A stretch of 64,000 nt of DNA from Tepidimicrobium xylanilyticum (GTDB lineage: Bacteria > Bacillota > Clostridia > Tissierellales > Tepidimicrobiaceae): contig NZ_FNNG01000001.1 of the NCBI RefSeq assembly GCF_900106765.1, forward strand, positions 415,366 to 479,365, read 5' to 3'. Numbering within the stretch: position 1 is the stretch's first letter; each line of letters begins with the position of its first letter. Below the pieces are notes generated by a model. It saw only the letters and a program-made list of their open reading frames with translations. It had not been told where the DNA came from and made no database searches. This document shows positions 3,875 to 27,162 of the stretch, piece after piece. The position numbers were made by a program, and so were the translations under genes.

Positions 3875-3960
3875 TTTGTCACCTCCATGCCTGATTATAA
3901 ATCATTATATCGCAACCTTTGTTTATAAACATTGTTTATTATTCACAAAAGTTCGAAAGT

Positions 3961-4530: not shown

Positions 4531-4540
4531 ATCCATTCTC

Positions 4541-5254: not shown

Positions 5255-5271
5255 CAATATCACCTGTGTTA

Positions 5272-10859: not shown

Positions 10860-10861
10860 GT

Positions 10862-11320: not shown

Positions 11321-12177
11321 GTTTCTGCCCCCTTTAGCCTTGCTATTCCTTGTCCTATTGCATCTTTAAATATCCTTTCTACGGCCCTTCTCTTATAAGG
11401 CAAAGTAGGTCTTCCCTTTAATCTCTCATCCATGGCCTCTTTTAATACTAAAATCGCTTCATCGATTACCTCATCGTTTAATTCCTTCCCTATTAAAAAT
11501 TCTTCCACCTTATGCTCCCTCAGAGGGTATCTGCCTAAGGAACCACTGGCTATCCTTATGGTTTTGACCATATTATCCTCATCTAATTCCAATAAAGTGG
11601 CTATAGAAAGTCTGGAAATAGCTAAGGCCTTTCTAAGACCTAGTTTTGAGAAAGATAAAACTTGGCATGATTTTGGCTTTTGAAACTGTATTGCAATTAT
11701 AAGCTCATCGTCTGCAATTTTAAAGTTTCCCTCATAATAATCTTTAAGTTTTATCTCCCTTTCTCCTCTTATGCTCCTTAAAATCAAGATGCTGTCCAAA
11801 CATAGAAGGGGAGGAACGGAATCAGCAGCAGGAGAACCATTAGCAATATTTCCACCTATAGTCCCCTTATTTCTTATCTGAGGGGAACCCACTTCCCTCG
11901 AGGCTTTCTTCAATCCATATAAATTATCTTCAAATAAAGGGTCTTCTACAAGCTGAGTAAAGGTAGTTGCTGCCCCTATCCTTATATACTCACCTATATC
12001 CTCAACACCTTTTAACTCATCTATGCTAGATATATCTATCAAAGCATCAACATTAACCTTACTTTCCCTCATAGCTATAATTAGGTCGGTACCGCCTGCA
12101 ATTAATTTGCCTTTTTCCTTATACTGATCTAATAACCTTATTACTTCATCTAGGGATTTTCCTTTATGTGCATACAT
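11314..12177 (-). CDS. Molybdenum hydroxylase, FAD-binding subunit
   Basis: A 287-residue FAD subunit of the xanthine dehydrogenase/CoxM type. FAD-binding signatures are KLIAGGTDLIIAMRE near residue 25 and RNKGTIGGNIANGSPAADSVPP near 101-122. The C-terminal CO-dehydrogenase flavoprotein domain follows (LRKALAISRLSIATLLEL). It is the first gene of the hydroxylase set, started by ATG 12177 behind AAGGAGG. That ribosome site lies only about 20 bases after a strong hairpin-plus-T-run, leaving no obvious room for a promoter. The gene order FAD, FeS, L, M equals ndhFSLM of Eubacterium barkeri. Confidence 0.92.
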   Translation of the reverse strand: MYAHKGKSLDEVIRLLDQYKEKGKLIAGGTDLIIAMRESKVNVDALIDISSIDELKGVEDIGEYIRIGAATTFTQLVEDPLFEDNLYGLKKASREVGSPQIRNKGTIGGNIANGSPAADSVPPLLCLDSILILRSIRGEREIKLKDYYEGNFKIADDELIIAIQFQKPKSCQVLSFSKLGLRKALAISRLSIATLLELDEDNMVKTIRIASGSLGRYPLREHKVEEFLIGKELNDEVIDEAILVLKEAMDERLKGRPTLPYKRRAVERIFKDAIGQGIARLKGAETW

Positions 12178-12250: not shown

Positions 12251-13573
12251 TTATAGGAATATATACTTCAATATGAATAAAGCTGCTAGTATATACATTA
12301 TTAAAGATATATCCTTATATCTTCCGGTTATAAGCTTTAATACTACATAGGAAACCATACCAAATACGATACCTTCAGCAATACTGTAAGCAAAAGGCAT
12401 CATTACAATAGTTAAAAAGGCTGGTATAGCTTCGGTAAAGTCATCTAAATCGATTTCCTTAATTGGGCTCATCATGAATAATCCTACTAGAATTAATGCT
12501 GGAGCAGTTGCTTGACTTGGTATTATAGCAAAAAGTGGTGAGAAGAATAATGCCAATAAGAACATTACTGCTGTAGACACTGCAGTTAACCCGGTTCTGC
12601 CTCCATCAGCAACACCAGAAGCTGATTCTACATATGTAGTAACTGTACTAGTTCCTAAGCAAGACCCTGCAACTGTACCCACAGCATCTGAAAGTAAAGC
12701 TTGACTAACCCTTGGAAGTTGCCCTTTTTCATCTAGCATATTAGCTTTGGATGCAACTCCTACTAAGGTTCCTACAGTATCGAATACGTCTACAAACAGG
12801 AAGGTAAACATTACTACTAGCATGTCCATTGAAAATATATTGGCCCATTCAAATTGGAAGGCTACATTTCTTACAGAAGGAGGTAGTGTGAAAAATCCTT
12901 CAGGCATAGGTGTAATTCCAAGAGGTATACCTATTATGGTAGTAACAATAATGCCTATCAATAATGCCCCCTTAACATTCTTAGCTAACAATACTCCCAT
13001 TATTATTAAGCCTATTAATGCTAAAATTGGACCTCTTGAAACAAGATTTCCTAATCCCAAAATAGTTCCATCTCCAGTTTGAACTATACCTGCATTAACA
13101 AAACCTATTAGTGCAATAAACAATCCTATACCTACCGATACACCTTTTTTCAGGTTAATTGGTATGGCATTAAATATGGCCTCTCTTACTTGGAAAAATG
13201 ATAAAAGTATGAATATAATCCCTTCCAAAAATACTGCTGTTAAGGCAAATTGCCAAGTATGACCCATTCCCTTCACTACCGTATAGGTGAAGAAAGCGTT
13301 AAGACCCATACCTGGAGCCAATGCAAATGGATAGTTAGCAAGTAGTCCCATCATAAGAGTTGCAATTGCTGCAGATAAAGCTGTAGCTGTAAATACTCCT
13401 CCCCAATCCATTCCTGTTTCTGATAACATTCCTGGATTGACCATTAATATATAAGCCATGGTCATAAAGGTGGTAATACCCGCTAAAATCTCTGTTCTAG
13501 CATCAGTATTGTTTTCCCGTAACTTAAATTTTCTTTCTAAAAAACCATCATTACCTAGAGTTTTGTCTGACAT
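12251..13573 (-). CDS. NCS2/AzgA-family adenine/guanine/hypoxanthine permease
   Basis: A 440-residue inner-membrane purine:proton symporter. It begins with the AzgA/PbuG hallmark TEILAGITTFMTMAYILMVNP, followed by GLLANYPFALAPGMGLNAFF and FLFVDVFDTVGTLVGVA, with ATAPALILVGLFMM near the end. About 13 membrane segments can be drawn. AzgA-type permeases carry adenine, guanine and hypoxanthine, which suits the adjoining adenine deaminase and hydroxylase. The GGGGGAT ribosome site precedes ATG 13573. A hairpin terminator follows the gene. Confidence 0.93.
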   Translation of the reverse strand: MSDKTLGNDGFLERKFKLRENNTDARTEILAGITTFMTMAYILMVNPGMLSETGMDWGGVFTATALSAAIATLMMGLLANYPFALAPGMGLNAFFTYTVVKGMGHTWQFALTAVFLEGIIFILLSFFQVREAIFNAIPINLKKGVSVGIGLFIALIGFVNAGIVQTGDGTILGLGNLVSRGPILALIGLIIMGVLLAKNVKGALLIGIIVTTIIGIPLGITPMPEGFFTLPPSVRNVAFQFEWANIFSMDMLVVMFTFLFVDVFDTVGTLVGVASKANMLDEKGQLPRVSQALLSDAVGTVAGSCLGTSTVTTYVESASGVADGGRTGLTAVSTAVMFLLALFFSPLFAIIPSQATAPALILVGLFMMSPIKEIDLDDFTEAIPAFLTIVMMPFAYSIAEGIVFGMVSYVVLKLITGRYKDISLIMYILAALFILKYIFL

Positions 13574-13639: not shown

Positions 13640-13818
13640 ATGCACAATTCACAATGTTTGACAATGCACAGTTCTCAACTCACAACTCACGATTATTAGG
13701 GGCTAGCCCTTAGGACTTTTAAACTACGAAAGACCGCTATGGAAACCCCAAAGCTAGACTTAAGTGCATCGCAAATTGTGAATTGATTAAAACTGTGCAT
13801 CGTGTACTGTGAATTGCC
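13640..13818. repeat. Intergenic palindromic repeat element A
   Basis: A roughly 180-base element with interleaved inverted repeats: CAATTCACAAT (13645-13655) against ATTGTGAATTG (13775-13785), and TGCACAGTT (13665-13673) against AACTGTGCA (13791-13799). The centre holds GGGCTAGCCC. Its right end abuts the TAG of the deaminase-like gene (13818-13820). It belongs to the same family as the elements near 15.7, 20.0 and 25.4 kb. No open reading frame lies inside. Confidence 0.7.
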
Positions 13819-15626
13819 TAAATTGTTGGCGAAAGGATTTTGAAGTTATTTACGTCTACAAGGCCTTTGTCGGTGATTTTCCATGTAGGTGATGTGGATA
13901 GGGATAAGAAGGATAGATGCATAAATGGCGCATGGACTTTACATCCTAGATCCTCTCTTGCTATCCTTTCTAGTTCAGCAATTTTTTGGCTCACCTCATG
14001 ACCACTTAATTCATCAGTTATTAATCCACCAACTGGAAGCCTCATATCGGACAAAATCCTTCCATTATTGGCTATAGCAATGCCTCCTCCCAGCTCTATA
14101 ACCCTGTTTACTGCTAAGGTCATATCTCTAATATTTGTACCTACTACTAAGATATTATGGGTATCATGAGCTACAGATTCAGCAAAAGCCCCACTCTTCA
14201 TTCCAAAACCCTTTACAAAAGCCTTCCCAATATTGCCAGTCCTACCGTACCTCTCAATACAAGCTATTTCTAAAGTATCAGTAGTAACATCTGGTTGAGC
14301 CACTCCATTGTAAACCCTTACAGTTTCTTCAGCTTTGCCAGTTAAATTTTGATCTGGAATAAGCTCTATACACCTTACTCTTGCAGTAGTACCTTCTGCC
14401 CTTATTTCCAAATCTCTTTCAGATATAGGCTTAATTTTAACTGAATTCTTAACTTCATCAGGATAAGTATAAGATGGTAAGTCTATTAGCAATTCCCCTT
14501 TTGACGCTACAAGCTTTCCATCTATAAATACTGCATCTACTACCATTTCTTCTAAATCGCTTATAACAGCTATGTCTGCTATCTTGCCTGGGGCTAATAC
14601 ACCTATATCTTCCAATCCAAAGTAAGTAGCTGGATTTATGGTAACCATCTGTATTGCCTCTACTGGATTTACTCCTTCTTTTATAGTCCTTCTAACTATA
14701 TCATTCATATGACCTGAAGTTTCTAAATCTGCTGCCACCATATCGTCGGAAGCTAGTATACATCTTCTGGAATCCATATTTTCTTCCGTAACAGCTCTAA
14801 TACATTCGGCCATATTCCTCTGAGTAGATCCTTCTCTCATGAATAGATAAACTCCCTGGCGAAGTTTTTCCACCGCCTCTTCTTTTGTTGTTGTTTCATG
14901 GCAGGAACACTTGCCTCCAGTTGAAATTATATGTGCGGCTAATTCCGCTCCAAATAATTCTGGTGCATTCCCATCCACTACCATGTTCTTAGATTTAGCA
15001 TACATGGTTGACGCCAATAGGTCTGTAATTATTTCTGGAGTATTCCTATATACATGTTTTGCATTGCTAAACCCTTGCAATTCTCCTATACCAATTATGT
15101 GTTTATAGTTAAGCAAATCTTCCATATCCTTAGAATTTGTATCATACCCTGCCGTCTCTAAATCTGGACAGTCAGGAGTTAAAGCTGGCACCACTAAATA
15201 AACCTTATTTGGCACCGAATCTATCTCATCGGCCATCGCCTTCATTCCTACAGGACCTAAGGCATTCCCTATTTCGTGGGGATCTGCAACTAAAGTGGTA
15301 GTTCCTGATGGAATAGATAGCCTGGAAAATTCAGTAATGGTAAGCATGCTTGATTCAAAATGCATATGGGAATCTATGAAACCAGGTGATAAATACTTGC
15401 CTTCCATATCTATAACTAAAGTATCAGGTCCAATTAACTTTTTACAATCTCCTACTAAAAGAATGTATTTCCCTTTAATGGCAATGTCTCCTTCGTATAT
15501 TTCTCTAGTAATTACATTTATTATCTTTCCATTGTATAGGACTATATCTGCATAATCTTTATCGCCCATTAGTACATCTATTAAATTCCTATACTCCATT
15601 GCCATCTTCGTATACTTAGAATCCAA
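13818..15626 (-). CDS. Adenine-deaminase-like amidohydrolase of the BMC operon; candidate 4-aminoimidazole deaminase
   Basis: A 602-residue member of the adenine deaminase family. It keeps HMH at residues 87-89 (PGFIDSHMHFESSM), Glu182, His243 and Asp294-Asp295. It differs from the window's ordinary Ade: GEMMNYPG becomes GELQGFSN, the His of DGHGP is Asn220 (DGNAP), and DDKHPSDL becomes DDMVAADL. The start is TTG 15626 seven bases after GGGGAGG. It is the last gene of the shell-protein operon. These substitutions and its position suggest a different substrate. In the xanthine fermentation pathway the analogous step is deamination of 4-aminoimidazole; this is inference. Ordinary adenine deaminase activity remains possible. 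Confidence 0.75.
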   Translation of the reverse strand: MDSKYTKMAMEYRNLIDVLMGDKDYADIVLYNGKIINVITREIYEGDIAIKGKYILLVGDCKKLIGPDTLVIDMEGKYLSPGFIDSHMHFESSMLTITEFSRLSIPSGTTTLVADPHEIGNALGPVGMKAMADEIDSVPNKVYLVVPALTPDCPDLETAGYDTNSKDMEDLLNYKHIIGIGELQGFSNAKHVYRNTPEIITDLLASTMYAKSKNMVVDGNAPELFGAELAAHIISTGGKCSCHETTTKEEAVEKLRQGVYLFMREGSTQRNMAECIRAVTEENMDSRRCILASDDMVAADLETSGHMNDIVRRTIKEGVNPVEAIQMVTINPATYFGLEDIGVLAPGKIADIAVISDLEEMVVDAVFIDGKLVASKGELLIDLPSYTYPDEVKNSVKIKPISERDLEIRAEGTTARVRCIELIPDQNLTGKAEETVRVYNGVAQPDVTTDTLEIACIERYGRTGNIGKAFVKGFGMKSGAFAESVAHDTHNILVVGTNIRDMTLAVNRVIELGGGIAIANNGRILSDMRLPVGGLITDELSGHEVSQKIAELERIAREDLGCKVHAPFMHLSFLSLSTSPTWKITDKGLVDVNNFKILSPTI

Positions 15627-15648
15627 TCTAAAACCTCCCCTCTTTCTT

Positions 15649-15745
15649 CAATGGACAATTGACAATAATTTAGGTTTAGCTTTTGCGCCACTTAGGCAAC
15701 CGCAGGTTGCCCATAATTGTCAACTGTGCATTGTCAATTGTCAAT
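15649..15745. repeat. Intergenic palindromic repeat element B, running into the pentamer-protein gene
   Basis: About 97 bases bounded by CAATGGACAATTGACAAT on the left and the inverted TTGTCAATTGTCAATTG on the right. The central hairpin is GGCAACC (15695-15701) with GGTTGCC (15705-15711). The right end supplies the last codons and the TGA stop (15734-15736) of the BMC pentamer gene, giving it the C-terminal residues TIDN. It is related to elements A, C and D. Confidence 0.7.
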
Positions 15746-16003
15746 TGTAATATCATCTACTATTCCTACTATGGCACAGTCGATGGGGGAGTCCATCTTT
15801 CTAGCCGCTATTCTCGAAGCAGTGCCTTTTACATAAAGAACTACCTCTCCTATCCCTGCCCCCACCGTATCTACAGCAATTATGGGTTCACCTATTGGTT
15901 TTAGGTCCATACTAAGAGGTTGGGTAATCATGAGCTTAGTACCTATTAAGTTTTCATCCTTCCTTGTTGCTACCACCGTTCCTATAACCTTTCCTAAATG
16001 CAT
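15734..16003 (-). CDS. BMC shell pentamer protein (EutN/CcmL family)
   Basis: An 89-residue BMC-P protein that caps the vertices of a microcompartment shell. Family features are HLGKVIGTVVATRKDENLIGTKL at the start, AVDTVGAGIGEVVLYVKGTASR in the middle and DCAIVGIVDDITID at the end. The length is normal for EutN/CcmL. The last residues are encoded inside a palindromic repeat element. It is the only pentamer gene in the window. It lies 14 bases after the flavoprotein-like gene within the shell operon. Confidence 0.93.
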   Translation of the reverse strand: MHLGKVIGTVVATRKDENLIGTKLMITQPLSMDLKPIGEPIIAVDTVGAGIGEVVLYVKGTASRIAARKMDSPIDCAIVGIVDDITIDN

Positions 16004-16017
16004 TTATAACCCTCCCT

Positions 16018-16767
16018 CTATTTTTCCATCTCTAATCTAATTCCCAATTCCTTAGCCTTATCTTTAGCTAAAGGGGTTATTATGGTACCCTTTCTTATTA
16101 CTAAAGGAGCTTTGGAATTATGGTTTAACAAATCCTTTTCAGTAATAACTTTATTATACTGTTTATCTTCTACTTTGTAATCAGGTTGGGATAAATTTTT
16201 ATTAAGTAATTTTTTCCCATGGTCCTGTGTATTTATTTCTACAGCTCCCATCCTTTTAATTTTATCTATTCTTTCCTCGATTAAATCCCTAATTACCTTG
16301 TTATTAGATGGGCTTCCAAGATAACTTCTTACGGAAGTAAAATCTAAATATACTGGCTTTTCTTTATATAGGAAAGTCCATATAACGTTGGATATAAAGC
16401 TATCTACCATGCCTAAAGTTACCTTGGAAAGGGTGTTCATGGTAATGTTGACTCCAATTACGGAAGAATGGCTGTTTACAATATCCTCCAATTGGAATAT
16501 GTCCTCTTCCCTATATACCTTTATGGGCTTCAAATTATTTATGATATAATCCACATCTAGAATCCTTTCACCCATAAAGGAAAATGCCAAGGAAAAATCT
16601 ATTCCTTTTTCTTTAAACCTTTTTAATTCTTCGATTTTCCCTTCCAAATCAATATTGGAGCCAGTAAAAACTATTAATACCTGTTCCTTATTCTTAGCAT
16701 AACTTTCTCCGCCAATCCTTCTACTAATGTCCGCCAATACATTTAAGGTAATTTTGTTTTTCACCAT
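16018..16767 (-). CDS. BMC-locus flavoprotein-like protein, function unknown
   Basis: A 249-residue protein between shell genes. The first about 180 residues look like a flavoprotein or other Rossmann-like fold (EQVLIVFTGSNIDLEGKI, VIGVNITMNTLSKVTLG, KPVYLDFTSVRSYLG). A charged linker follows. The C-terminus, VIRKGTIITPLAKDKAKELGIRLE, resembles the TPLAxDxAxExGI tail I recall from several BMC-associated proteins. No catalytic motif is obvious. Possible roles are handling flavin for the prenyl-FMN enzyme UbiD, a redox step, or shell assembly. None is demonstrated by the sequence. Confidence 0.6.
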   Translation of the reverse strand: MVKNKITLNVLADISRRIGGESYAKNKEQVLIVFTGSNIDLEGKIEELKRFKEKGIDFSLAFSFMGERILDVDYIINNLKPIKVYREEDIFQLEDIVNSHSSVIGVNITMNTLSKVTLGMVDSFISNVIWTFLYKEKPVYLDFTSVRSYLGSPSNNKVIRDLIEERIDKIKRMGAVEINTQDHGKKLLNKNLSQPDYKVEDKQYNKVITEKDLLNHNSKAPLVIRKGTIITPLAKDKAKELGIRLEMEK

Positions 16768-16786
16768 TTAATACACCCCAATGGGA

Positions 16787-17065
16787 TTATTCGTATTGCT
16801 TCAATATAACCCTTTCAACTTCTGAATGGGGTCTTGGTATTACATGAACTGAATGTAATTCTCCAACAGCTCTAGCTGCTTCTGCTCCTGCTTCAACTGC
16901 TGCTTTAACAGCACCTACATCCCCTCTAACCATTACTGTTACAAGTCCAAAACCTATTTTCTCATAAGCTATTAAAGTAACATTAGCAGCCTTTACCATT
17001 GCATCTGCTGCCTCAATGGAACCCACCAAACCTTTTGTTTCAATTAAACCTAATGCTTGACTCAT
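16787..17065 (-). CDS. BMC shell hexamer protein (BMC-H)
   Basis: A 92-residue single-domain BMC protein of the PduA/EutM/CcmK class. It has [55 protein letters not shown] and [11 protein letters not shown]. Hexamers of such proteins tile the shell facets and form the small central pore. Of the three hexamer genes this is closest to the generic consensus. It starts two bases after the stop of the next shell gene upstream, so the pair is probably translated together. Confidence 0.95.
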
Positions 17066-17067
17066 AA

Positions 17068-17451
17068 TTATTCCTCCTTATTTGATTTTTTATTTTTATT
17101 TTTGTCCTTTTCTTTTTGCTCTTTTCCTTGCTTTTCTATTTCTTTATTGTTTCCCTTTAAATTACGGGAAAACTTTTCCAGCAACTTATCCACCTCATCA
17201 TGAGGCCTTGGTATTACATGGCTAGCAATTACAGTTCCTACTCTGTTTCCTGCTTCCACCCCTGCAGCAACGGCAGCTTTCACAGCAGCTACTTCTCCAG
17301 CAATTTGTATATTTACCCCTACTGCTTTTCCTACACCGATTACCTTCTCAAACCCTATTAAGGTTACATCAGCAGCTTTGCTAGCCGCATCTAAGGCTGA
17401 AACAGCAGTAGTAAGTCCTAATGCTTCAATAAGTCCTACAGCCATTTGCAT
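17068..17451 (-). CDS. BMC shell hexamer protein with charged C-terminal tail (BMC-H)
   Basis: A 127-residue BMC-H protein. Residues 1-92 form the shell domain ([66 protein letters not shown]). Residues 93-127 add a lysine/glutamate/asparagine-rich, probably disordered tail ending [11 protein letters not shown]. The pore-loop region differs from the other two hexamers. The tail may contact cargo, other shells or the cytosol; this is inferred only from position and composition. Confidence 0.93.
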
Positions 17452-17469
17452 TTCTTAAAACCCCCTTTA

Positions 17470-17691
17470 CTAAAGGTTCTTCTTTACCATATCTACTGCC
17501 TGGTCTAAAGTAACCACATTTCCTTTACCGGTGTAATTTTCAACTTGTTTATTTCCCTTAATAAGGTCCTTCAATAACTCAACCTCTCTACTACTTAAAT
17601 TCCCAAAACTACCCTGTTCCCTATAAGGTGTTGAATCTTCCTTGTTTTTAGTAAGGTTGCTCATAACAACCCTAGCTAATGGATTAACCAT
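17470..17691 (-). CDS. Small protein inside the BMC operon, unknown function
   Basis: A 73-residue protein I do not recognise, starting at ATG 17691 behind GGTGGTGA. It is hydrophilic overall. The middle has NLSSREVELLKDLIKG, and the last 14 residues VTLDQAVDMVKKNL form a short amphipathic helix with hydrophobics at i, i+3/4, like the peptides that tether enzymes to BMC shells. It sits between two hexamer genes. It could be a linker or scaffold that brings cargo to the shell. There is no enzyme motif, no signal peptide and no metal-binding cluster. Confidence 0.7.
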   Translation of the reverse strand: MVNPLARVVMSNLTKNKEDSTPYREQGSFGNLSSREVELLKDLIKGNKQVENYTGKGNVVTLDQAVDMVKKNL

Positions 17692-17708
17692 AATATTTCA
17701 CCACCATG

Positions 17709-17972
17709 TTAAAATATTTTATCCACTTCGTCATGAGGTCTAGGAATTACGTTTGTGGAAACCACTTCAGCTACTTTGGCTGCTTCTTCCTTTCCGCTTT
17801 CAACGGCTGCCTTAACCGCAGCTACATCTCCTGTTACAACAACAGCCACTAATCCAGAACCTACAAAATGGAAGTCCAATATTTTTACATTAGCAGCCTT
17901 CGTCATAGCATCTGCTGCTTGGATGGCCCCAATTAAAGATCTGGTTTCTACCATTCCAATTGCTTCCTTCAT
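17709..17972 (-). CDS. BMC shell hexamer protein (BMC-H)
   Basis: An 87-residue single-domain shell protein. It has [52 protein letters not shown] and [14 protein letters not shown]. It is a normal-length BMC-H and the first shell gene after UbiD (15-base gap), so shell and decarboxylase should be made together. Three distinct hexamers in one operon imply a mixed facet with different pores. Confidence 0.95.
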   Translation of the reverse strand: MKEAIGMVETRSLIGAIQAADAMTKAANVKILDFHFVGSGLVAVVVTGDVAAVKAAVESGKEEAAKVAEVVSTNVIPRPHDEVDKIF

Positions 17973-17987
17973 TTTAACTCACCTTCT

Positions 17988-19340
17988 CTATACCAATTTT
18001 GGAAAATACTTTCTGATGTCTATGTCCTCATAACCCGGAATTCTAGCTCTCTCAAATCTTTCAGCCACTTCTCCTAAAGGCTTGGTAGCGTCAATTCCCA
18101 CTTTATCCGTTACACCTCTTAAATCATGGGATGGTTCTAAAGATGAACCTAATGCTCCAGGCACTATAACAAAATCCTGACTAGCTTGTGCTCTTGTAGT
18201 AATAGCCCATTCTATATCTTGTAAATCGAATATATCTACATCTCCATCTACTATTACTACCTGTTTTAAGTCTTTATTAGAGCCTAGTGCTGCTAAAATT
18301 GCTGATTTCCCATCTCCATCTTTCTTCTTATTTATGGAGGCAAAAGCGTTAAATCGATAGCCCCCTCCTTCTGTAACATTTACATCTATTACATCGACCT
18401 GATTCTTCAAGTAATTATATAATTCCACTTCCCTTATAAGGCCATTAGACAGGTGTTCCTCTCTACATGGAAATGCAATTTGGAATATGGGATCATTTCT
18501 ATACATAACTCCAGTTATTTCAATGATTGGATGAGGAGCCACCCCGCCATAATATCCCATTAGTTCACCAAAGGGACCTTCCAATTCCCTTCTTCCTGGT
18601 ACTAATTTCCCTTCAAGTACTATTTCACAATGAGCTGGCACCAATAAATCTACTGTCTCACAATGCACTAGTTCTAAAGGTTCTCCTCTTAAAGCACTAT
18701 CAATCTCAAATTTGTCCACTCCGTAGCTTTCCGAACTAACCTGACTAGCCATCAAGAAAAAGGCATCATATCCGAGAACTATAGCCACTTCCAAAGGCTT
18801 ATTTTCCTTTTCCAGTTGGAGGAAATCGTTAGTTAACTTTGGAGAAGCTATTAAAGCAGAAAGTTGATTGCCTCCATTTACCTGTAGTCGCCTTATGGAA
18901 GTAAAGTACTTTTTAGTTTCTGGATCCTTTACCACCATTACTCCCGCTGTAATAAAACTAGATGAGTCTTTTTCCTGATACTTAGGTATAGGGAACAGCC
19001 TTGATAAGTCGATATTTCTTGTAATTATATTCTCCTTTATAGGACCTTTATCAACTATCTTATAGGGTTTAGGATTAGCTATGGCCTCCATGAATTTAAA
19101 TAGCCTATTGTCATGTTCCATGTGTAATAGCTTATACATTATTTCCCTATTTCCATAAAGGCCTCCTATTCCTCTGACGGTGCTATTTTTAATTTTGGGG
19201 AATAGTATGGGCTTTTTATTCCTAAAATACTTTAAAACTCCGCCCAATTCATATATGGGGTCTACTTCCCTTTCACAGACTAGAATCTCTCCCATCTGAT
19301 CTAGCCTTTCCAAGGTATATCTGAGCATTTGTCTTTCCAA
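17988..19340 (-). CDS. UbiD-family prenyl-FMN decarboxylase
   Basis: A 450-residue UbiD-family enzyme. These use prenylated FMN to decarboxylate aromatic or conjugated acids reversibly. Conserved features are FITAGVMVV near 129, Arg150-Arg151 in TSIRRLQVNGG, and ELEGPFGELMGYYGG, whose Glu254 and Glu259 match the paired catalytic glutamates of the family. The start is TTG 19340, seven bases after GGGAGG. It follows its cofactor maker UbiX and precedes the shell genes. A ubiquinone role is unlikely in this anaerobe-type context. I infer decarboxylation of 4-amino-5-imidazolecarboxylate; other heteroaromatic acids remain possible. Confidence 0.92.
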   Translation of the reverse strand: MERQMLRYTLERLDQMGEILVCEREVDPIYELGGVLKYFRNKKPILFPKIKNSTVRGIGGLYGNREIMYKLLHMEHDNRLFKFMEAIANPKPYKIVDKGPIKENIITRNIDLSRLFPIPKYQEKDSSSFITAGVMVVKDPETKKYFTSIRRLQVNGGNQLSALIASPKLTNDFLQLEKENKPLEVAIVLGYDAFFLMASQVSSESYGVDKFEIDSALRGEPLELVHCETVDLLVPAHCEIVLEGKLVPGRRELEGPFGELMGYYGGVAPHPIIEITGVMYRNDPIFQIAFPCREEHLSNGLIREVELYNYLKNQVDVIDVNVTEGGGYRFNAFASINKKKDGDGKSAILAALGSNKDLKQVVIVDGDVDIFDLQDIEWAITTRAQASQDFVIVPGALGSSLEPSHDLRGVTDKVGIDATKPLGEVAERFERARIPGYEDIDIRKYFPKLV

Positions 19341-19355
19341 TAAATCCCCTCCCTT

Positions 19356-19916
19356 CTACAGTCCTTTCCACCTCTTAACCAGATTGTTGTCTATGCCTAA
19401 TGAATCCAGTATCCTTCCAGTCATATTTATAACAATATCCTCGATAGTCTCCGGATGATTATAAAATCCAGGGCTAGGAGGAAATATGGTAACTCCTATT
19501 CTTGATAACTTTAACATGTTTTCTAAATGAATAGGGCTTAAAGGGGTCTCTCTTGGCACTAAAACCAGTTTCCTTTTTTCCTTAATGATCACATCACAAG
19601 CTCTAGTAAGGAGGCTGTCTGTAAAACCATTAGCAATAGATGATAGGGTTTTCATAGAACAAGGCACAACTACCATGCCATCTACCTTAAAGGAACCGCT
19701 AGCTATTGGTGCAGCAAAATTCTTGTTGTCATGGAAATAGGTAGCCATCTTCTTTAATTCATGTAAATCTATTCCACATTCATGCTGAGTAACGAACTCC
19801 CCCATGGTACTTACCACCAAGTGAGTTTCTATATTCAATTGTTGAAGGGCTTTTAATAGGGATACTGCATAAATTGATCCGCTTCCACCTGATATTCCAA
19901 CTACTATCTTCTTCAT
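19356..19916 (-). CDS. ubiX: UbiX-family flavin prenyltransferase
   Basis: This 186-residue enzyme joins a dimethylallyl group to FMN to make the prenyl-FMN cofactor of UbiD. Motifs are GISGGSGSIYAVSLLKAL at the start, VVVPCSMKTLSSIANG near 83-98 and LVLVPRETPLSPIHLENML. I start at ATG 19916 (MKKIVVG), nine bases after AAAGG; an upstream in-frame TTG at 19943 lies inside a repeat element and would add nine unrelated residues. It is directly upstream of its UbiD partner. Confidence 0.93.
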   Translation of the reverse strand: MKKIVVGISGGSGSIYAVSLLKALQQLNIETHLVVSTMGEFVTQHECGIDLHELKKMATYFHDNKNFAAPIASGSFKVDGMVVVPCSMKTLSSIANGFTDSLLTRACDVIIKEKRKLVLVPRETPLSPIHLENMLKLSRIGVTIFPPSPGFYNHPETIEDIVINMTGRILDSLGIDNNLVKRWKGL

Positions 19917-19931
19917 ATCAAACAACCTTTC

Positions 19932-20086
19932 TTCAATTGACAATTGACAGTTGACAATTACCTAGCCCTAGTTTTCGGATTTTTACAGCAACCTCAAATC
20001 ACTCTTTAGACTAAAGAGTTAAACTTTAATAATTATCCGTTTCACACTGTCAACTGTCTAAAATTGTCAATTATCCATTGTCTAAA
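19932..20086. repeat. Intergenic palindromic repeat element C
   Basis: About 155 bases between the ureido-hydrolase and ubiX genes. The left end has CAATTGACAATTGACAGTTGACAATT; the right end carries inverted copies (ACTGTCAACTGTCTAAAATTGTCAATT). An inner hairpin is ACTCTTTA, GAC, TAAAGAGT at 20001-20019. The right edge abuts the TAG stop of the hydrolase gene. It belongs to the same family as elements A, B and D. Confidence 0.7.
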
Positions 20087-20698
20087 CTATTCTACTTTAT
20101 TCTCTGGATCGCCGCCGCCTTCCCATGGGTCTAGGCCTTTTTCCCAAGCATCTATATACTCGTCTACGGTCATAACCTTCGAGAATATGCTTAGGTCTTT
20201 AAGTCCAGCTTGGTGCATTTCTTCAGTTTTTGATGCACAAGCATCGCTTAAAGTAATAACTTTATATGCATAGTATAAAGCATCTGATGCAGAACTTCTA
20301 ACGCATACATTTGTCCAGGTTCCAGTAACTACTACTGTATCTATCTTTTCCTCTCTTAGGTACAAGTCTAAGTCTGTATGGGCAAAAGCGCTGTGCCTTC
20401 TCTTTTGAACTATATATTCACCTTTTTCTGGTTTAAGCTCATCTATAAATTCTGAACCCCAAGTCCCTTTTACAGCATGAACTGGTCTAACTTTAAAATC
20501 AGCATCATTTTCCCTATGAGCTTCTTGTATGTGAATTAGTTGTATGTCATCCTTGCCTTGGGCATTTCTCTCCCTAACCCAGTTCATAAGCTTTTGTAAT
20601 GTAGGAATTATAGTCCTATTGGTTGGGCAATATAATACTCCATCTGGATGAGCAAAATCGTTTAACATATCAATTATTAGTATACCATGTCTTGGCAT
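20087..20698 (-). CDS. Isochorismatase-fold amidohydrolase; candidate ureido-imidazole-carboxylate hydrolase
   Basis: A 203-residue cysteine hydrolase with the family triad: Asp10 (GILIIDMLNDF), Lys99 (QKRRHSAF) and Cys132 (GTWTNVCVRSSASDA). Relatives include N-carbamoylsarcosine amidase, biuret hydrolase and ureidoacrylate hydrolase RutB, all of which cut ureido or amide C-N bonds. A short acidic C-terminal tail (EGGGDPENKVE) follows the core. It lies between a cyclic amidohydrolase and UbiX/UbiD. In that order it fits removal of the carbamoyl group from 4-ureido-5-imidazolecarboxylate. That substrate is inferred from the pathway; other carbamoyl compounds are possible. Confidence 0.85.
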   Translation of the reverse strand: MPRHGILIIDMLNDFAHPDGVLYCPTNRTIIPTLQKLMNWVRERNAQGKDDIQLIHIQEAHRENDADFKVRPVHAVKGTWGSEFIDELKPEKGEYIVQKRRHSAFAHTDLDLYLREEKIDTVVVTGTWTNVCVRSSASDALYYAYKVITLSDACASKTEEMHQAGLKDLSIFSKVMTVDEYIDAWEKGLDPWEGGGDPENKVE

Positions 20699-20734
20699 AA
20701 TTCTTCCTCCTTTATTATTTACAAATTTTATTTA

Positions 20735-22336
20735 TTAATAGGTTATAGTTCTTGGTAGAACTTGAATGCTTTGTCTCTTAACAAATTTCCCAAATCCTGG
20801 TCTAACCTTAATGCCTTTAATTCCTCTAATATGTTGATCTATCAATTCAGGATGTTCTTTCCTATAGCTCTTTTCATATTCTTGGCTGTGTAGATTTGGA
20901 AACTCTTTAAATATTTCTGAATATCTTTCTTCTACGCCTTCAGGATACTTGTGAACAATTCTTTGTAATTCTTCGTCGCTTAAATCCTTCAAGGTGCTGC
21001 CTTCCACATCTTCAAATACCAAATGACCTCTAACTATGGTCTTAACTACCTTTCCTTTTAACTCCATTCCTTCTAATGGTGTATACCCACACATGGAAGC
21101 TTGGTCTTTAAGGTCGATAGTCCATCTTTTTTCTAAATCTATGATGGTAAAGTCAGCATCTGAACCAATATGCATTGCACCCTTCTTTGGATATAATCCG
21201 TAGTGCTTAGCTGCATTAGTACTTAATATATCCACCATCTTGGACAAGGAAATTCTTCCCTTGTTATATCCTTCACTAACTATAATTGGCACCATAGTTT
21301 CTACTCCTGGTATCCCGGGGAAAGCAGTCCAGATGTTCATGCCCTTCTTATGCTTTTCACTTTCTATTTCATAAGGAGCATGGTCAGTAGCTATAAAATC
21401 TACGCTTCCATTATTTAAGCCTTCCCATAGCATTTCGTTATCCTTCTTTTCCCTTAAAGGTGGAGCAATTTTAGCTAATGGACCGTACTTAGTCATAGCT
21501 TCTTGATAATTTAATGTTAGATAATGAGGACAAGTTTCACTAGTTACATTCAATCCTCTAGCTTTAGCTTCTCCTACCAATTTAGCTCCAATTCCTGTAC
21601 TCATGTGGACTATATGAAGTCTAGCACCTGTATCCTCAGCAAAGCTAATACCTAATTGAATGGCAACCTTTTCCGCTAGTTCCATTCTAGCTTCTGCCCA
21701 AGCAGGTCCGTCCATTCTACCTTCCCTTTGGAATTTCTTTACAAAATAGTCACACATAGCAAAGTTTTCAGCATGAATTCCTATTGGAAGCCCAGTTTCT
21801 GCTACAGCTTTAAAGGCTTCATACATTTCCGGATCAGAAACCCTCGGATAAGTTGGAACGGAAGGTGTCATATATACTTTAAAAGCTACGGCTCCAAAAT
21901 CTGCCTGCTCTTTTACATTGTGTAACCAACCTTCTCTTACGTCTTCTCCAGTTACTCCTCCCCACATAGCATAATCTACTAGGGCTTGAGGTTCTACTAA
22001 TTCGATTTTCAACTTCAACTGTTCAACACTTCTAGCCGATGGAACGGAGCAACAAGGCATATCTATAACAGTTGTAATACCGCCTCTTGCTGCTGCAGCC
22101 GAACCAGTTAGGAAATTCTCCCTATGTGGGAACCCCTGATACATGAAATGAGTATGAGAATCTATACAACCAGGTAGTGTTAAGTGACCGTTAGCATCTA
22201 TGACCTCTTTAGCTTCTATGCCAACCACATTGTCTAAAAATCCAGCAATCTTTTCGTCTTTTACCAGTATATTGGTGATAACGGTATCATCTCCTTGTGG
22301 AATCCTGGCATTTTTAATAATTACATCATATACCAC
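20735..22336 (-). CDS. Cyclic amidohydrolase (hydantoinase/allantoinase family); candidate xanthine amidohydrolase
   Basis: A 533-residue binuclear metal hydrolase. The metal ligands are all present: His61 and His63 (CIDSHTHF), Lys153 for carbamylation (AFKVYMT), His188 (GIHAEN), His244 (IVHMST) and Asp318 (ATDHAPY). Family members open cyclic amides such as allantoin, hydantoin or dihydropyrimidines. The usual fold ends near 450; here about 80 more residues follow, including DLSDEELQRIVHKY, a helix like shell-targeting peptides. The start is GTG 22336 behind AGGAGGG. It is the first enzyme gene after the permease. Ring opening of xanthine is the inferred reaction; allantoinase or dihydropyrimidinase are alternatives. 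Confidence 0.85.
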   Translation of the reverse strand: MVYDVIIKNARIPQGDDTVITNILVKDEKIAGFLDNVVGIEAKEVIDANGHLTLPGCIDSHTHFMYQGFPHRENFLTGSAAAARGGITTVIDMPCCSVPSARSVEQLKLKIELVEPQALVDYAMWGGVTGEDVREGWLHNVKEQADFGAVAFKVYMTPSVPTYPRVSDPEMYEAFKAVAETGLPIGIHAENFAMCDYFVKKFQREGRMDGPAWAEARMELAEKVAIQLGISFAEDTGARLHIVHMSTGIGAKLVGEAKARGLNVTSETCPHYLTLNYQEAMTKYGPLAKIAPPLREKKDNEMLWEGLNNGSVDFIATDHAPYEIESEKHKKGMNIWTAFPGIPGVETMVPIIVSEGYNKGRISLSKMVDILSTNAAKHYGLYPKKGAMHIGSDADFTIIDLEKRWTIDLKDQASMCGYTPLEGMELKGKVVKTIVRGHLVFEDVEGSTLKDLSDEELQRIVHKYPEGVEERYSEIFKEFPNLHSQEYEKSYRKEHPELIDQHIRGIKGIKVRPGFGKFVKRQSIQVLPRTITY

Positions 22337-22641
22337 AATATATCCCTCCTATTATTTTTTTATTTCCCAGTAATATATTATCATGGAGAAAAAAAATATA
22401 CCTTGTTGATGTTTGATAAAAATGTATTTTCTATTTATACATTTAAATTAATTTTTTGTAAGTTTTTAATGATATCTATTTTAAGTCTATTATTAATTTA
22501 TTCACAATCCATCTAATAAATAGCTTCCCTAGAAAGATGAAGTATTCAACTTGTCACAAACTACTTAGAAATTTTCTTTCAAGATAAACTAATTCTTAAA
22601 CCATTTCACTTTGTTAAGTTCTAAAAGTTCCGTTTTGTATC
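22337..22641. promoter_or_regulatory. Intergenic region with an inverted repeat upstream of the BMC catabolic operon
   Basis: 305 AT-rich bases between the permease gene and the cyclic amidohydrolase start. An inverted repeat AAATGTAT (22420-22427) / ATACATTT (22437-22444) lies about 85-115 bases before the GTG start and could be an operator. I see no convincing -35/-10 pair, gene or riboswitch fold. A promoter here would let the enzymes be expressed apart from the permease. Confidence 0.4.
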
Positions 22642-23997
22642 TTAATCTATAATTTCACTTACTGTATGTTGAGGACTTTCTTTTAATACCAAGCTAAGCA
22701 ATAAAGCTACAATTGTACCAGCTGAAATTCCTGAGCCAAATAAACTACCTAGAATTCCAGGAAGTTGCTCAACAACTTCAGGTCTAAAAGTAACCCCTAA
22801 TCCTATTCCTAAAGCACTTGCAATAATTAATATGTTTCTATTATTAAGTTCAACTTGTAACAAAGTTTTAACACCTGAAACTGTAATTGTACCAAACATT
22901 AATATACTAGCACCACCAAGAACACATGAAGGCATGATAGATATAATTGTTGAAAATTTAGGGCAAAGACTCATGAAAATTAGTAATAAACCCGTAACAA
23001 TACCTATATGTTTTGATGCACATTTAGTAAGTGGGATTAACCCTACATTTTGGCTAAAGGATTGCACTGGACCTGAACCAATAAATGGACTTAGGAAAGA
23101 ACCCACTGCATCAGCTCTAACACCTGCAACCATATCTTCATCTGTCATACTAGTTCCTGTAACTTGACCAAGTGTCTCCATAACCCCTACGGTTTCTATA
23201 ATTGTAACCAAATATCCTGCTAGGAATGGAACAACATATTTAAGTTCAAAATTAATTCCAAAGGGCAGTATTTTAGGTAATTGAATCCAGTCAGCTTCTG
23301 CTACTTGTGAGAAATCAACAAGCCCCATCGGAATACAAATTATATATCCTATTACAATCCCAATTAAAACAGCAGCTGTACTGATCATTCCTTTTCCATA
23401 AAGGTTTAATAATAATACTAGAACAAATACAATTACAGCAACTAGCAAATATTTCACATCTCCATAGTTTGGATTACCTACCCCACCAGCAACCCAGTCA
23501 AAAGCTACTGGCATCATAGACATTCCCATAAGTGAGATAACAGTACCTGTTACTGTTGGTGTAAATATTTTCATCAAAGGTTTTACAAAGAAGCTTAGGA
23601 TAAATTCAAATATTGCTCCTAATACTGTTGCACCAAAATAAGCTGGTAATCCTCCTCCCATAGTATTGATAACTATATTAGCAGGTGGCACAAATCCAAA
23701 ATCTGTTCCCATAACTGTTGGAAGTCCTACACCAATACGGAATTTTTTTGGTCCAATTCCTGCTGATTGTATTATAGATGTAATACCAGATGCAAGTAAT
23801 CCTGCTGATATTAAAAAAGCTGTCTCAACAACATTGCATCCTGCAATTCCTGCAATAATCAAAGGCACTGCAACAATACCACCAAAAGATGTTAAAATAT
23901 TTTGGAATCCTAAAATAATAGAAGTAAAAAACCCAGGTTTATCATGCACATCATAAAGTAACCCTAATTGTGATTTATCAACAACTTTATTTTCCAA
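22642..23997 (-). CDS. NCS2-family xanthine/uracil permease
   Basis: A 451-residue inner-membrane nucleobase permease. It shows GFQNILTSFGGIVAVPLIIA in helix 1, AGYLVTIIETVGVMETLGQVTG, then the NCS2 signature region SQNVGLIPLTKCASKHIG and PSCVLGGASILMFG. About 12-14 membrane segments can be drawn. It is distinct from the AzgA-type carrier at 12.3 kb, and this subfamily usually takes xanthine, urate or uracil. The start is TTG 23997 after AGGTGA. Its place at the head of the BMC operon makes it the probable importer of the pathway substrate. Confidence 0.9.
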   Translation of the reverse strand: MENKVVDKSQLGLLYDVHDKPGFFTSIILGFQNILTSFGGIVAVPLIIAGIAGCNVVETAFLISAGLLASGITSIIQSAGIGPKKFRIGVGLPTVMGTDFGFVPPANIVINTMGGGLPAYFGATVLGAIFEFILSFFVKPLMKIFTPTVTGTVISLMGMSMMPVAFDWVAGGVGNPNYGDVKYLLVAVIVFVLVLLLNLYGKGMISTAAVLIGIVIGYIICIPMGLVDFSQVAEADWIQLPKILPFGINFELKYVVPFLAGYLVTIIETVGVMETLGQVTGTSMTDEDMVAGVRADAVGSFLSPFIGSGPVQSFSQNVGLIPLTKCASKHIGIVTGLLLIFMSLCPKFSTIISIMPSCVLGGASILMFGTITVSGVKTLLQVELNNRNILIIASALGIGLGVTFRPEVVEQLPGILGSLFGSGISAGTIVALLLSLVLKESPQHTVSEIID

Positions 23998-24000
23998 TTA

Positions 24001-24622
24001 TTTTCACCTCTCATTTTTTGGTTGAACACTAATATGATATTTTCATCTATATTTCCCAGCTTGCATATCCAGTAGTTAAATAAATCAAGCTATTAGTATC
24101 ACCCCTTGCTTTCTCTAATCTTTACTAGTTATTAGGCCCAATAACTAAGATAAATAGATTTTTATATTTAATTGGCTTGATTCCCTATTATAAGCATTGT
24201 CTATACCTATAAAAAGGGAAGTTGTACCAATTTTAGCTAAATTGTTGGGAACGTTTGCTGGTATGCTGTAATAGCAATGTTAAATATTTGATTGTTTATT
24301 ATTAAACAATCTAGGTGAAATTTAAAAGGTTGTCCGCATTATTTATCATAAAATAAAATACAACCAACTATTATTACTTATGTAAATATTTGCAAAATTC
24401 ATTTTTTACAATGATTTTTAAATTCTTTGTAAGTATGTTAGCATATTATTTTAAAATAAACCTTGTAGATATCCTATAAAAAATATTTATAAACTAATAA
24501 GTCAAACCTATATTTTGTTATAACTTTTAATAATTTTGTGGACTTTATATATATTATTTTTTTACGATAAGAGTATATAATTTACATAACACTATAATGA
24601 ATGGAAGGAGGAAAGAGTAAAT
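24001..24622. promoter_or_regulatory. Divergent control region of the BMC operon with two palindromes
   Basis: 620 AT-rich bases between the permease (minus) and cyclase-family (plus) genes. Two perfect inverted repeats stand out: TAGTTATT/AATAACTA at 24126-24147 and GATTGTTTA/TAAACAATC at 24290-24311. A TATAAT at 24576-24581 could be the -10 of the cyclase gene, and ATTATA at 24187-24192 a minus-strand -10 for the permease. The PucR regulator gene nearby is the likely user. I found no gene or recognisable purine riboswitch here. Confidence 0.5.
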
Positions 24623-25318
24623 ATGAGTCTAAAACTAATAGATCTATCCCAAGAAATCTATGAAGGCATGTCCATATTTCCAATGCACCAAAGAACCTTT
24701 ATAATGACCAATATGACCCATGAAGAAAATATGAAGATGACTGGAAGCCCAACAGTAGGCTTTTCTGCTAGAAACCTATTAATATCGGAACACTGTGGAA
24801 CCCATAGCGATGGAGTGTCAGAATTTAAACCTGGAGGTCCTACTATCGACAAAATGCCCTTAGAATATTTTTGGGGTAGTGCTATATGTCTCGATGTAAG
24901 CCACGTAAGATATCCTAATTACATAGAACCAAAAGATTTAGAAGAAGCTGAAAGAAGGTCGGGACAAAAGATTATGAAGGGAGATATAGTGCTACTTTAT
25001 ACAGGCCATCATGACAGAACCTTCGGAACTGATAAATTCCAAACGGAATATACGGGCCTAAGCTATGAAGGAGCTAAATGGCTAGCAGAAAAAGGTGTAG
25101 TAAACATTGGAGTAGACGCTCCTGCCATAGATTTAACTCCAGACGACATTAGATTCTCAGGTCATTTAGTTTGCGGTGAATATAATATAACGAATACGGA
25201 AAACCTTTGCAATCTAGATAAGCTTGTAAACAAAAGATTCTTATACTTCGGACTACCTTTAAAAATAAGAGACGGCTCTGGCTCGCCAATAAGAGCAGTA
25301 GCACTTGTGGAAGAGTAG
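24623..25318 (+). CDS. Cyclase-family metal-dependent hydrolase; candidate 4-imidazolonase
   Basis: A 231-residue protein of the cyclase/kynurenine formamidase superfamily. The metal-binding motif appears as SEHCGTHSDGVSEF near residues 55-68, with LLYTGHHDR and GVDAPAIDL further on. Members include arylformamidase and isatin hydrolase, which opens a five-membered cyclic amide. It is transcribed away from the BMC operon and faces the pucR gene. Opening of 4-imidazolone to formiminoglycine would be chemically analogous to isatin hydrolysis, so I propose it as the last ring-opening enzyme. The sequence alone does not fix the substrate. Confidence 0.82.
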   Translation: MSLKLIDLSQEIYEGMSIFPMHQRTFIMTNMTHEENMKMTGSPTVGFSARNLLISEHCGTHSDGVSEFKPGGPTIDKMPLEYFWGSAICLDVSHVRYPNYIEPKDLEEAERRSGQKIMKGDIVLLYTGHHDRTFGTDKFQTEYTGLSYEGAKWLAEKGVVNIGVDAPAIDLTPDDIRFSGHLVCGEYNITNTENLCNLDKLVNKRFLYFGLPLKIRDGSGSPIRAVALVEE

Positions 25319-27101: not shown

Positions 27102-27133
27102 AGTATACCTACCTTTTACTATTCTTTTCAAAA

Positions 27134-27162
27134 ATTATATCATAGTAGGAATACTCTGTCTA
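27134..27162 (-). promoter_or_regulatory. Probable sigma-A promoter of pucR
   Basis: Reading the minus strand, TAGACA (27162-27157) is followed by a 17-base spacer and TATAAT (27139-27134). Transcription would begin near 27127. The -35 overlaps the guaD stop codon, so pucR can be expressed independently of guaD. Confidence 0.7.

Follow-up and report, generated by a model that had tools for sequence, protein, structure and literature searches.

How would a bacterial microcompartment (BMC) be held together, and what would it enclose, when its shell genes lie among genes for hydrolases and a decarboxylase and its genome encodes no BMC-T shell protein? The question is raised by an operon at positions 13818..25318 of a 64,000-nucleotide stretch of Tepidimicrobium xylanilyticum DNA (Bacillota, order Tissierellales; assembly GCF_900106765.1, contig NZ_FNNG01000001.1, positions 415,366 to 479,365 of the forward strand), hereafter the window. 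Here we describe it as a probable Xau/BUF1-type xanthine-utilisation microcompartment operon, whose enzymes are predicted to take xanthine to formiminoglycine and which, having no BMC-T, encodes a 73-residue protein likely to be a separate core-shell linker. Xanthine as the predicted substrate is given with high confidence, and the linker role, which we infer from the family's distribution and predicted structure, is favoured with some reserve. The central idea of a xanthine microcompartment locus is right but already in print; new, as far as we searched, are the findings that known purine fermenters carry the enzyme-and-shell block and that a conserved, linker-like small gene occupies the BMC-T slot.

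How Clostridium acidurici and C. cylindrosporum ferment purines was established in the 1940s-50s. On the genomic side, the accessible text of Axen 2014 describes, from four Firmicutes species, a BUF locus that may represent a third kind of microcompartment, Sutter 2021 places BUF1 in Maledivibacter halophilus, and Ravcheev 2019 predicted xanthine use for the locus and named it Xau (PMC6620236). The suspicion of the first-pass annotation that microcompartment surveys list such a locus was thus well placed. M. halophilus strain M1 (L044) carries the locus type described here, including the small gene. The gene cluster of a "xanthinase pathway", identified in Clostridia and Bacilli, is credited to Tong 2023, with a xanthinase turnover of 0.1 per second (PMC12507026).

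Transcription on the minus strand runs through genes for a permease, a cyclic amidohydrolase, an isochorismatase-fold hydrolase, UbiX, UbiD, a BMC-H protein, the small open reading frame (ORF), two further BMC-H proteins, a flavoprotein-fold protein, BMC-P and an adenine-deaminase-like enzyme, with a cyclase gene divergent on the plus strand (Table 1). All genes named in the first-pass annotation are present where it put them, each with a best Pfam match well above cut-off, and two escaped that account, namely the small ORF and the flavoprotein-fold gene. A scan of the whole genome for PF00936 returned three domains, all single-domain proteins of this locus, and no BMC-T. No aldehyde dehydrogenase core was matched by Pfam among the 20 gene products scanned from 6884 to 28434, nor in the small ORF.

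The gene set was surveyed in 80 named loci, gathered by means of the amidohydrolase alone and including those truncated at contig ends. Alongside the amidohydrolase, the isochorismatase-fold gene is present in 72 loci, UbiX and UbiD in 64 each, the cyclase in 63, BMC-H in 61, the adenine-deaminase-like gene in 60 and BMC-P in 59. Among the 61 named loci with BMC-H, the isochorismatase-fold gene is found in all, UbiX and UbiD in 60 each, the adenine-deaminase-like gene and the flavoprotein-fold gene in 57 each, and a cyclase within reach in 55. The co-location of shell and enzyme genes is not chance.

The small gene lies between two BMC-H genes and runs from an ATG at 17691, with GGTGGTG ahead of it, through 73 codons to a stop. 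Scanning covered this slot in the window, in the 80 named loci and in four more; at least three BMC-H ORFs are present in 62 loci, and 61 of these hold an unassigned ORF in the slot. Removal of seven slot ORFs that were BMC-T or BMC-T-like genes or overlapping frames (one in L065, five in L079, one in L082) gave a set of 59 proteins of 71-260 aa, and copies from L012 and L039 were added by hidden Markov model (HMM). HMMs built in one clade recover the family in the other: the 17 Tissierellales-type copies find 39 of the 42 others at E 1e-3 and all 42 at 0.1, while the 42 find all 17 held-out Tissierellales-type copies at E 1e-3, the extra matches at 1e-3 among 5,296 ORFs being the same gene in two truncated loci and nothing else. 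With the window copy left out, the HMM recovers it among 776 six-frame segments at E 4.1e-18 (runner-up E 6). In all nine close pairs, which were hand-picked, the ratio of nonsynonymous to synonymous substitution rates (dN/dS) is 0.16-0.56, and the small gene is under purifying selection.

None of four members tested matched a Pfam family, and neither of two tested an NCBIfam family. A database search brought up 46 relatives; none carries a Pfam domain, and where a usable name exists, as it does for a few, it is "hypothetical". The proteins have much Lys, Asn and Ser and little Cys, Trp, Phe, Tyr and His, the latter five together making up 4.5% of residues, versus 11% in the pathway enzymes. 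The AlphaFold2 model of the 73-residue protein has helices at 4-15, 34-44 and 62-71 with unstructured linkers (pLDDT 72, pTM 0.29), and the hydrophobic moment of the C-terminal helix has a p of 0.015. After residue 20, the motif [ST][LIF]x[DES][LIMA][AVG], defined for the later helices post hoc with the data in view, occurs 53 times in 39 of the 59 proteins, up to four times per protein, compared with 1.0 occurrence per shuffled set (maximum 6). An N-terminal profile was built from 55 of the 59 N-terminal windows, the four scoring under 7 being left out of it and of the hydrophobic-moment test; among the best matches listed outside the family, six of 13 are flavoprotein-fold proteins (p 4.6e-9).

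That flavoprotein-fold protein is itself modelled by AlphaFold2 (pLDDT 87.7) as a helix at 2-18, a linker and a UbiX-like domain, and its best Foldseek matches are the UbiX and phosphopantothenoylcysteine decarboxylase folds. The TIGR02536 model scores 40 bits, under its cut-off of 152.6. Short members of 74-138 aa (L041, L043, L047, L057, L069, L021, L023) keep the N-terminal helix region and a C-terminal segment, and in the short forms from Caloramator, Lutispora and Romboutsia the flavoprotein domain is absent. Because the short forms retain the ends and have lost the domain, the ends appear to carry the conserved function.

In a main set of 85 loci (the 80 named loci, the window, L115, L116, L118 and L129), 66 have BMC-H, of which 61 hold the small gene, three a longer gene in the slot (L068 from Carboxydothermus; L079; and L082 from Paenibacillus), two neither (L058, at a contig end, and L076) and none both. 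All 61 copies of the small gene lie in loci with BMC-H; none was found in BMC-H-less loci and none together with BMC-T. The longer gene of L068 and L079 encodes a PduB-type BMC-T (NCBIfam PduB, 359 and 288 bits against a cut-off of 173; two PF00936 stretches each). Twelve further genomes of the Paenibacillus order were read in part, the loci of G530, G451, G537 and G322 entering no slot count; where the shell was reached, eight of eight have an L082-like gene in the slot, which with L082 makes nine such loci. The proteins of these loci (L082, L146, L157-L163) begin with a helix-like N-terminal stretch, continue through a long linker of low complexity and are divergent in their C-terminal part. 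Aligned together, the nine copies match the PduB-type pair in a profile-profile comparison with 89% probability (E 2.1e-6 over 173 columns; unrelated control 0.1%), and on this alignment we read the Paenibacillus protein as a divergent BMC-T whose N-terminal linker is long. The slot state changes once on a UbiD tree of 75 rows, a number as low in none of 500 shuffles; four rows with no assigned state were left out of this count, and no full-length UbiD row came from L157.

By analogy with the N-terminus of PduB, whose first 37 residues in Salmonella join core and shell (PMC12108088, PMC9132943), or with CsoS2, helix 1 of the small protein would enter a bundle of encapsulation helices in the core, and the later helices would hold other partners. 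UbiD aligns with solved relatives over residues 6-445 of 450 and the adenine-deaminase-like enzyme over 19-596 of 601, neither with a clear terminal extension, so recruitment by a separate linker is a reasonable prediction. The isochorismatase-fold enzyme may have a short C-terminal tail, since it aligns over 1-202 of 203 residues with 3hb7, while other relatives stop at least 13 residues short of the C-terminus. The 3hb7 protein is from Alkaliphilus metalliredigens, and hence perhaps from such a locus. An insertion of about 60 aa near the C-terminus of the amidohydrolase (residues ~440-505) was considered as a packaging signal and rejected, because insertion-free forms also occur in shell loci, for example L041 and L129. 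The insertion is present in the Tissierellales-type copies and not in the others, independently of the presence of a shell.

Besides the post hoc definition of the motif, several results count against the reading given here. The hydrophobic moment of the N-terminal helix is not significant (window p 0.115; below 0.05 in eight of 55 members). In profile comparisons the small family and the flavoprotein-fold proteins line up at their N-termini without significance (E 0.13, probability of about 1% or less), the small family and the PduB-type proteins align from residue 1 without significance (E 0.051, probability 1.1%), and nothing aligns between the small family and the Paenibacillus slot proteins. 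Ranked by N-terminal score among 5,296 ORFs, the PduB-type proteins stand at 61 and 920 and the Paenibacillus protein at 257. The Paenibacillus slot protein (L082) has no sequence match in Pfam, NCBIfam or the PDB, a profile of L068 and L079 alone found none of the Paenibacillus slot proteins at E 1e-3, and the branch of the UbiD tree between the two slot states has an SH-aLRT of just 81. Descent of the small protein from PduB finds no significant support in these comparisons, and the weaker support for a Paenibacillus BMC-T and for N-terminal homology slightly lowers our confidence in the linker and in the fuller proposal given below.

The strongest alternative makes the small protein a cargo or regulator inside the compartment, whose gene lies between shell genes by happenstance. 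It would sit comfortably with the non-significant N-terminal amphipathicity and PduB profile match; the occurrence of the gene only with shell genes (61 of 61 copies), the low-complexity linkers, the three predicted helices and the exchange with BMC-T or BMC-T-like genes in one slot all speak against it, and we regard a cargo or regulator as unlikely, if worth keeping in mind.

The enzymes of the operon can be read as a pathway. In this predicted route the permease would import xanthine, whose six-membered ring would be opened by the cyclic amidohydrolase (PF01979) to give 4-ureido-5-imidazolecarboxylate. The residues H60, H62, K152, H187, H243 and D317, which we take to be the metal ligands, are invariant among 27 aligned sequences. 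The isochorismatase-fold enzyme (PF00857) would then strip the carbamoyl group, and UbiD (PF01977), with prenylated flavin mononucleotide (prenyl-FMN) from UbiX, would decarboxylate the product to 4-aminoimidazole. The nearest solved chain to UbiD is 6h6v (E 9.8e-107), and the stretches EGPFGE and SIRRLQ, to which we attribute a catalytic role, are present. The adenine-deaminase-like enzyme would deaminate 4-aminoimidazole to 4-imidazolone, and the cyclase (PF04199) would open this to formiminoglycine, to be used by folate enzymes outside the shell. The xanthinase pathway of Tong 2023 reportedly comprises four hydrolases, each from a different family, plus a decarboxylase that depends on prenyl-FMN, which fits the step assignment of the first-pass annotation.

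All of these steps are hydrolyses except one decarboxylation with a bound cofactor, so neither coenzyme A (CoA) nor NAD need cross the shell. The shell might instead retain 4-aminoimidazole and 4-imidazolone, small, neutral and reactive intermediates that could leak, and might aid the first enzyme, which is slow, by holding its product close to the one that follows.

The order of genes and their conservation bear on which enzyme does what. The isochorismatase-fold gene follows within 900 bases of the amidohydrolase gene in 72 of the 80 named loci, which fits consecutive steps. The adenine-deaminase-like gene, to which the first-pass annotation gave the deaminase step, is favoured for it because it is so well conserved, the four BMC-H loci that lack it (L011, L012, L039, L058) all running into a contig end. 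Its TIGR01178 score of 495 bits (cut-off 472), compared with 653 for a true adenine deaminase at 6884-8596, is as might be expected of a paralogue with a changed substrate.

The same pathway and compartment could be had with the roles predicted by Ravcheev 2019, where Amet_4587 opens xanthine, Amet_4572 deaminates and Amet_4584 opens imidazolone (PMC6620236). The accessible text also assigns step 3 to Amet_4587, already given to step 2, probably by a slip for Amet_4583. Counting genes in A. metalliredigens between two anchors, Amet_4568-69 (xanthine dehydrogenase) and Amet_4581 (decarboxylase), would make Amet_4587 the cyclase, Amet_4584 the amidohydrolase, Amet_4572 a guanine-deaminase-like gene, Amet_4574 the adenine-deaminase-like gene and Amet_4579 the small gene. 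On this mapping, the cyclase would open xanthine, the allantoinase-like enzyme 4-imidazolone, and a guanine-deaminase-like amidohydrolase would deaminate 4-aminoimidazole, so that our assignment differs in three of the five ring steps. The earlier roles have the standing of a published prediction; they fit less well with the gene content, since no Amet_4572-type gene was seen in the scanned part of the window, which has a true guanine deaminase instead, since the adenine-deaminase-like gene (57 of 61) is kept in more BMC-H loci than the cyclase (55 of 61), and since the amidohydrolase and isochorismatase-fold genes lie close together as consecutive steps would. The reported enzyme set of Tong 2023 also fits the other assignment. 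We consider that set of roles improbable.

Comparison of the gene set with purine fermenters, which the first-pass annotation had suggested, gives the xanthine pathway support that is independent of the earlier published prediction. Gottschalkia acidurici 9a and G. purinilytica are among the close relatives of the amidohydrolase, which is found at E 1e-150 or better in 41 of 249 genomes of the order, the window's own included. G. acidurici 9a (L115) has the whole block, divergent cyclase included, and its putative linker is 203 aa long. G. purinilytica has the block from deaminase to amidohydrolase and then a contig end (L116), with a cyclase beside a second amidohydrolase copy on a different contig (L117). 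In a metagenome-assembled genome (MAG) of Andreesenia angusta (L119, the same record as L025) the block is present from deaminase to amidohydrolase, close to where a contig ends, and in a further locus with the same genus code (L118) likewise, with no cyclase in either stretch. A gene for formimino-tetrahydrofolate (formimino-THF) cyclodeaminase lies inside the G. acidurici locus, which fits formiminoglycine as end product. Glycine reductase (PF07355) had no match in G. acidurici, and a search of its locus for inverted repeats gave nothing of use. Both G. acidurici (L114) and G. purinilytica (L117) also have a second, shell-less cyclase and amidohydrolase pair away from the shell block.

In its accessible text, the G. 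acidurici genome paper reports finding no candidate genes for the steps from 4-ureido-5-imidazolecarboxylate to formiminoglycine, and reports that adenine is not used despite three adenine deaminase genes. One of these, Curi_c29030, is numbered right after selenium-molybdenum genes. The block deaminase may be this gene, because a molybdenum-cofactor gene adjoins it. The papers on the genomes of G. acidurici, A. angusta, G. purinilytica and C. cylindrosporum nowhere use the word "microcompartment" in their main texts, and no paper joining "Gottschalkia" and "microcompartment" was found in a search that covered neither supplements nor subscription papers. No C. cylindrosporum protein appears among the best 120 amidohydrolase relatives in either of two listings.

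Two findings sit less easily with a compartment that always encloses the whole route. The cyclase is absent from six of the 61 BMC-H loci (L025, L065, L068, L075, L078, L079), and since L065 and L068 have full 10-kb flanks some loci do without it nearby. In Thermosyntropha lipolytica there are homologues of the amidohydrolase, isochorismatase-fold enzyme, UbiD and adenine-deaminase-like enzyme and a cyclase fragment, with no PF00936 domain genome-wide; the shell may thus not always be needed, and some bacteria may run the pathway chemistry without one. No small gene was found in the T. lipolytica loci fetched. Loci L059, L063 and L168-L172 are from T. lipolytica, and L061 is a stretch of a Thermosyntropha MAG.

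A different ring altogether (allantoin, hydantoin or a pyrimidine) is very unlikely as the substrate. The amidohydrolase does match many allantoinase, hydantoinase and dihydroorotase models, although among the 25 listed a single one, for a general dihydroorotase subfamily, is above cut-off (AllB allantoinase reaches 350.7, just under 357.9), and the isochorismatase-fold enzyme matches the RutB and biuret hydrolase models weakly. The neighbours are genes for xanthine dehydrogenase, guanine deaminase, adenine deaminase and PucR, the block is carried by known purine fermenters, and UbiD and the formimino-THF enzyme fit the xanthine route. Least credible is that the small ORF is left over from a lost BMC-T gene and now in decay, a notion invited by its much shorter length in the same slot and opposed by dN/dS below 1 in every pair, conservation in 61 loci, long forms of up to 260 aa with repeated motifs and the cross-clade HMM matches.

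The surroundings of the operon hold purine genes (Table 1), and include the true adenine deaminase mentioned above. No formiminotransferase was found among the scanned genes of the locus; an FTCD_N match lies at 413592-414134 of the contig, on the same strand and about 1.2 kb past the window's left end, an FTCD_C match lies on another contig, and homologues of glycine reductase are also present in the genome. The second purine permease is AzgA-like. In the window, no tRNA gene was found and no Rfam family, including purine and xanthine riboswitches, reached its gathering score; within 5000-29000, Rfam returned merely two unrelated weak matches at E up to 1.

Table 1. Features of the xanthine-utilisation locus and its surroundings (window coordinates)
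Feature	Position	Strand	Basis
Selenium-dependent molybdenum hydroxylase maturation genes (yqeB, mocA/ygfJ, yqeC)	3077..5263	-	TIGR03309, TIGR03310 (just under cut-off), TIGR03172
Xanthine-dehydrogenase-type molybdenum hydroxylase, four ORFs	8593..12177	-	PF20256, PF02738, PF01799, PF00941
Second purine permease	12251..13573	-	PF00860, 160 bits
Adenine-deaminase-like enzyme (ade2), predicted 4-aminoimidazole deaminase	13818..15626	-	PF13382, PF01979; TIGR01178
BMC-P vertex protein	15734..16003	-	PF03319, 108.7 bits
BMC-associated flavoprotein-fold protein, 249 aa, TIGR02536-like	16018..16767	-	PF02441, 23.4 bits (barely above cut-off 22.7)
BMC-H shell protein, 92 aa	16787..17065	-	PF00936, 105.8 bits
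BMC-H shell protein, 127 aa, lysine-rich C-terminal tail	17068..17451	-	PF00936, 74.2 bits; sequence
Small gene, 73 aa, predicted three-helix disordered core-shell linker	17470..17691	-	ORF, HMM, AlphaFold2
BMC-H shell protein, 87 aa	17709..17972	-	PF00936, 92.7 bits
UbiD-family prenyl-FMN decarboxylase, predicted 4-amino-5-imidazolecarboxylate decarboxylase	17988..19340	-	PF01977, 190 bits
UbiX-family flavin prenyltransferase	19356..19943	-	PF02441, 155.9 bits; TIGR00421, 252.5 bits (cut-off 108.9)
Isochorismatase-fold hydrolase, predicted 4-ureido-5-imidazolecarboxylate hydrolase	20087..20698	-	PF00857, 152 bits; solved relative 3hb7, E 9.4e-95
Cyclic amidohydrolase, predicted xanthine amidohydrolase (xanthinase)	20735..22336	-	PF01979, 101.6 bits
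Nucleobase permease	22642..23997	-	PF00860, 264.7 bits
Cyclase-family metal hydrolase, divergent, predicted 4-imidazolonase	24623..25318	+	PF04199, 125.9 bits; relatives kynurenine formamidase, isatin hydrolase
PucR-type regulator of purine catabolism	25437..27131	-	PF07905, 109 bits; PF13556, 78.5 bits
Guanine deaminase	27160..28434	-	TIGR02967, 397.7 bits (cut-off 375.4)

Some records in the survey are unusual in themselves. In a MAG locus (L008, 5979-9443), UbiD is followed directly by the flavoprotein-fold gene, BMC-H, the small gene and BMC-P were not found and two genes are split, which may be either natural loss or an assembly error. The locus, otherwise mostly of Firmicutes, is also carried by records named Lutibacter sp. 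B2 (L034), Calditrichales bacterium MX18-03 (L066) and Brenneria sp. 4F2 (L076, part only), by transfer or because the records are misnamed or contaminated.

The fullest form of the proposal, in which clostridial purine fermentation proceeds inside an organelle and a free-standing, CsoS2-like disordered linker replaces the PduB-type shell protein, stands in our estimate just short of an even chance. If it is true, the two Gottschalkia species and Andreesenia would have a dedicated organelle for classical purine fermentation, built for cofactor-free chemistry unlike the aldehyde organelles, and catabolic microcompartments would have a new way to join core and shell. With its 73 residues the small protein would then be a minimal linker in its own right, matching in nature the N-terminus of PduB, and might serve as a means of loading shells. 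The proposal also bears on the puzzle of adenine deaminase genes in G. acidurici, an organism that does not use adenine.

Among known systems, BUF and BUF1 are alike in having shell genes with amidohydrolases, a deaminase, an isochorismatase and a carboxy-lyase and in the absence of a metabolosome core. They differ in that, in the accessible text of Axen 2014, BUF encodes BMC-T, whereas the window's genome has three single PF00936 domains and a small gene in the slot, and in that a formiminotransferase is listed in the locus, whereas none is among the window's scanned genes. According to the accessible text of Ravcheev 2019, formiminotransferase is also absent from two Bacillus loci (PMC6620236). 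No BMC-T was seen in the A. metalliredigens locus either, and its absence is therefore treated as a variant and not as a failure of BUF1 membership. Xau is the same type of cluster with the same proposed substrate, and the amidohydrolase family of the window includes the A. metalliredigens protein; the differences lie in three of the five ring-step assignments, on the mapping given above, and in the small putative linker gene, which goes unmentioned in the accessible part of Ravcheev 2019. The xanthinase pathway of Tong 2023 shares the anaerobic hydrolysis of xanthine and the occurrence of the cluster in Clostridia and Bacilli (PMC12507026).

For the linker, one likeness is to the Pdu metabolosome (PduB residues 1-37 and PduM), where a short N-terminal helix joins core and shell; the helix of PduB belongs to a BMC-T shell protein, whereas the predicted linker here is a separate gene product with further helices. 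CsoS2 of the alpha-carboxysome is likewise a disordered linker protein that organises cargo and shell, although in an anabolic compartment, and is far larger than the 73-residue protein. By analogy with these systems, the simplest reading is that in clostridial Xau a separate protein does the job done elsewhere by the tail of a PduB-type shell protein.

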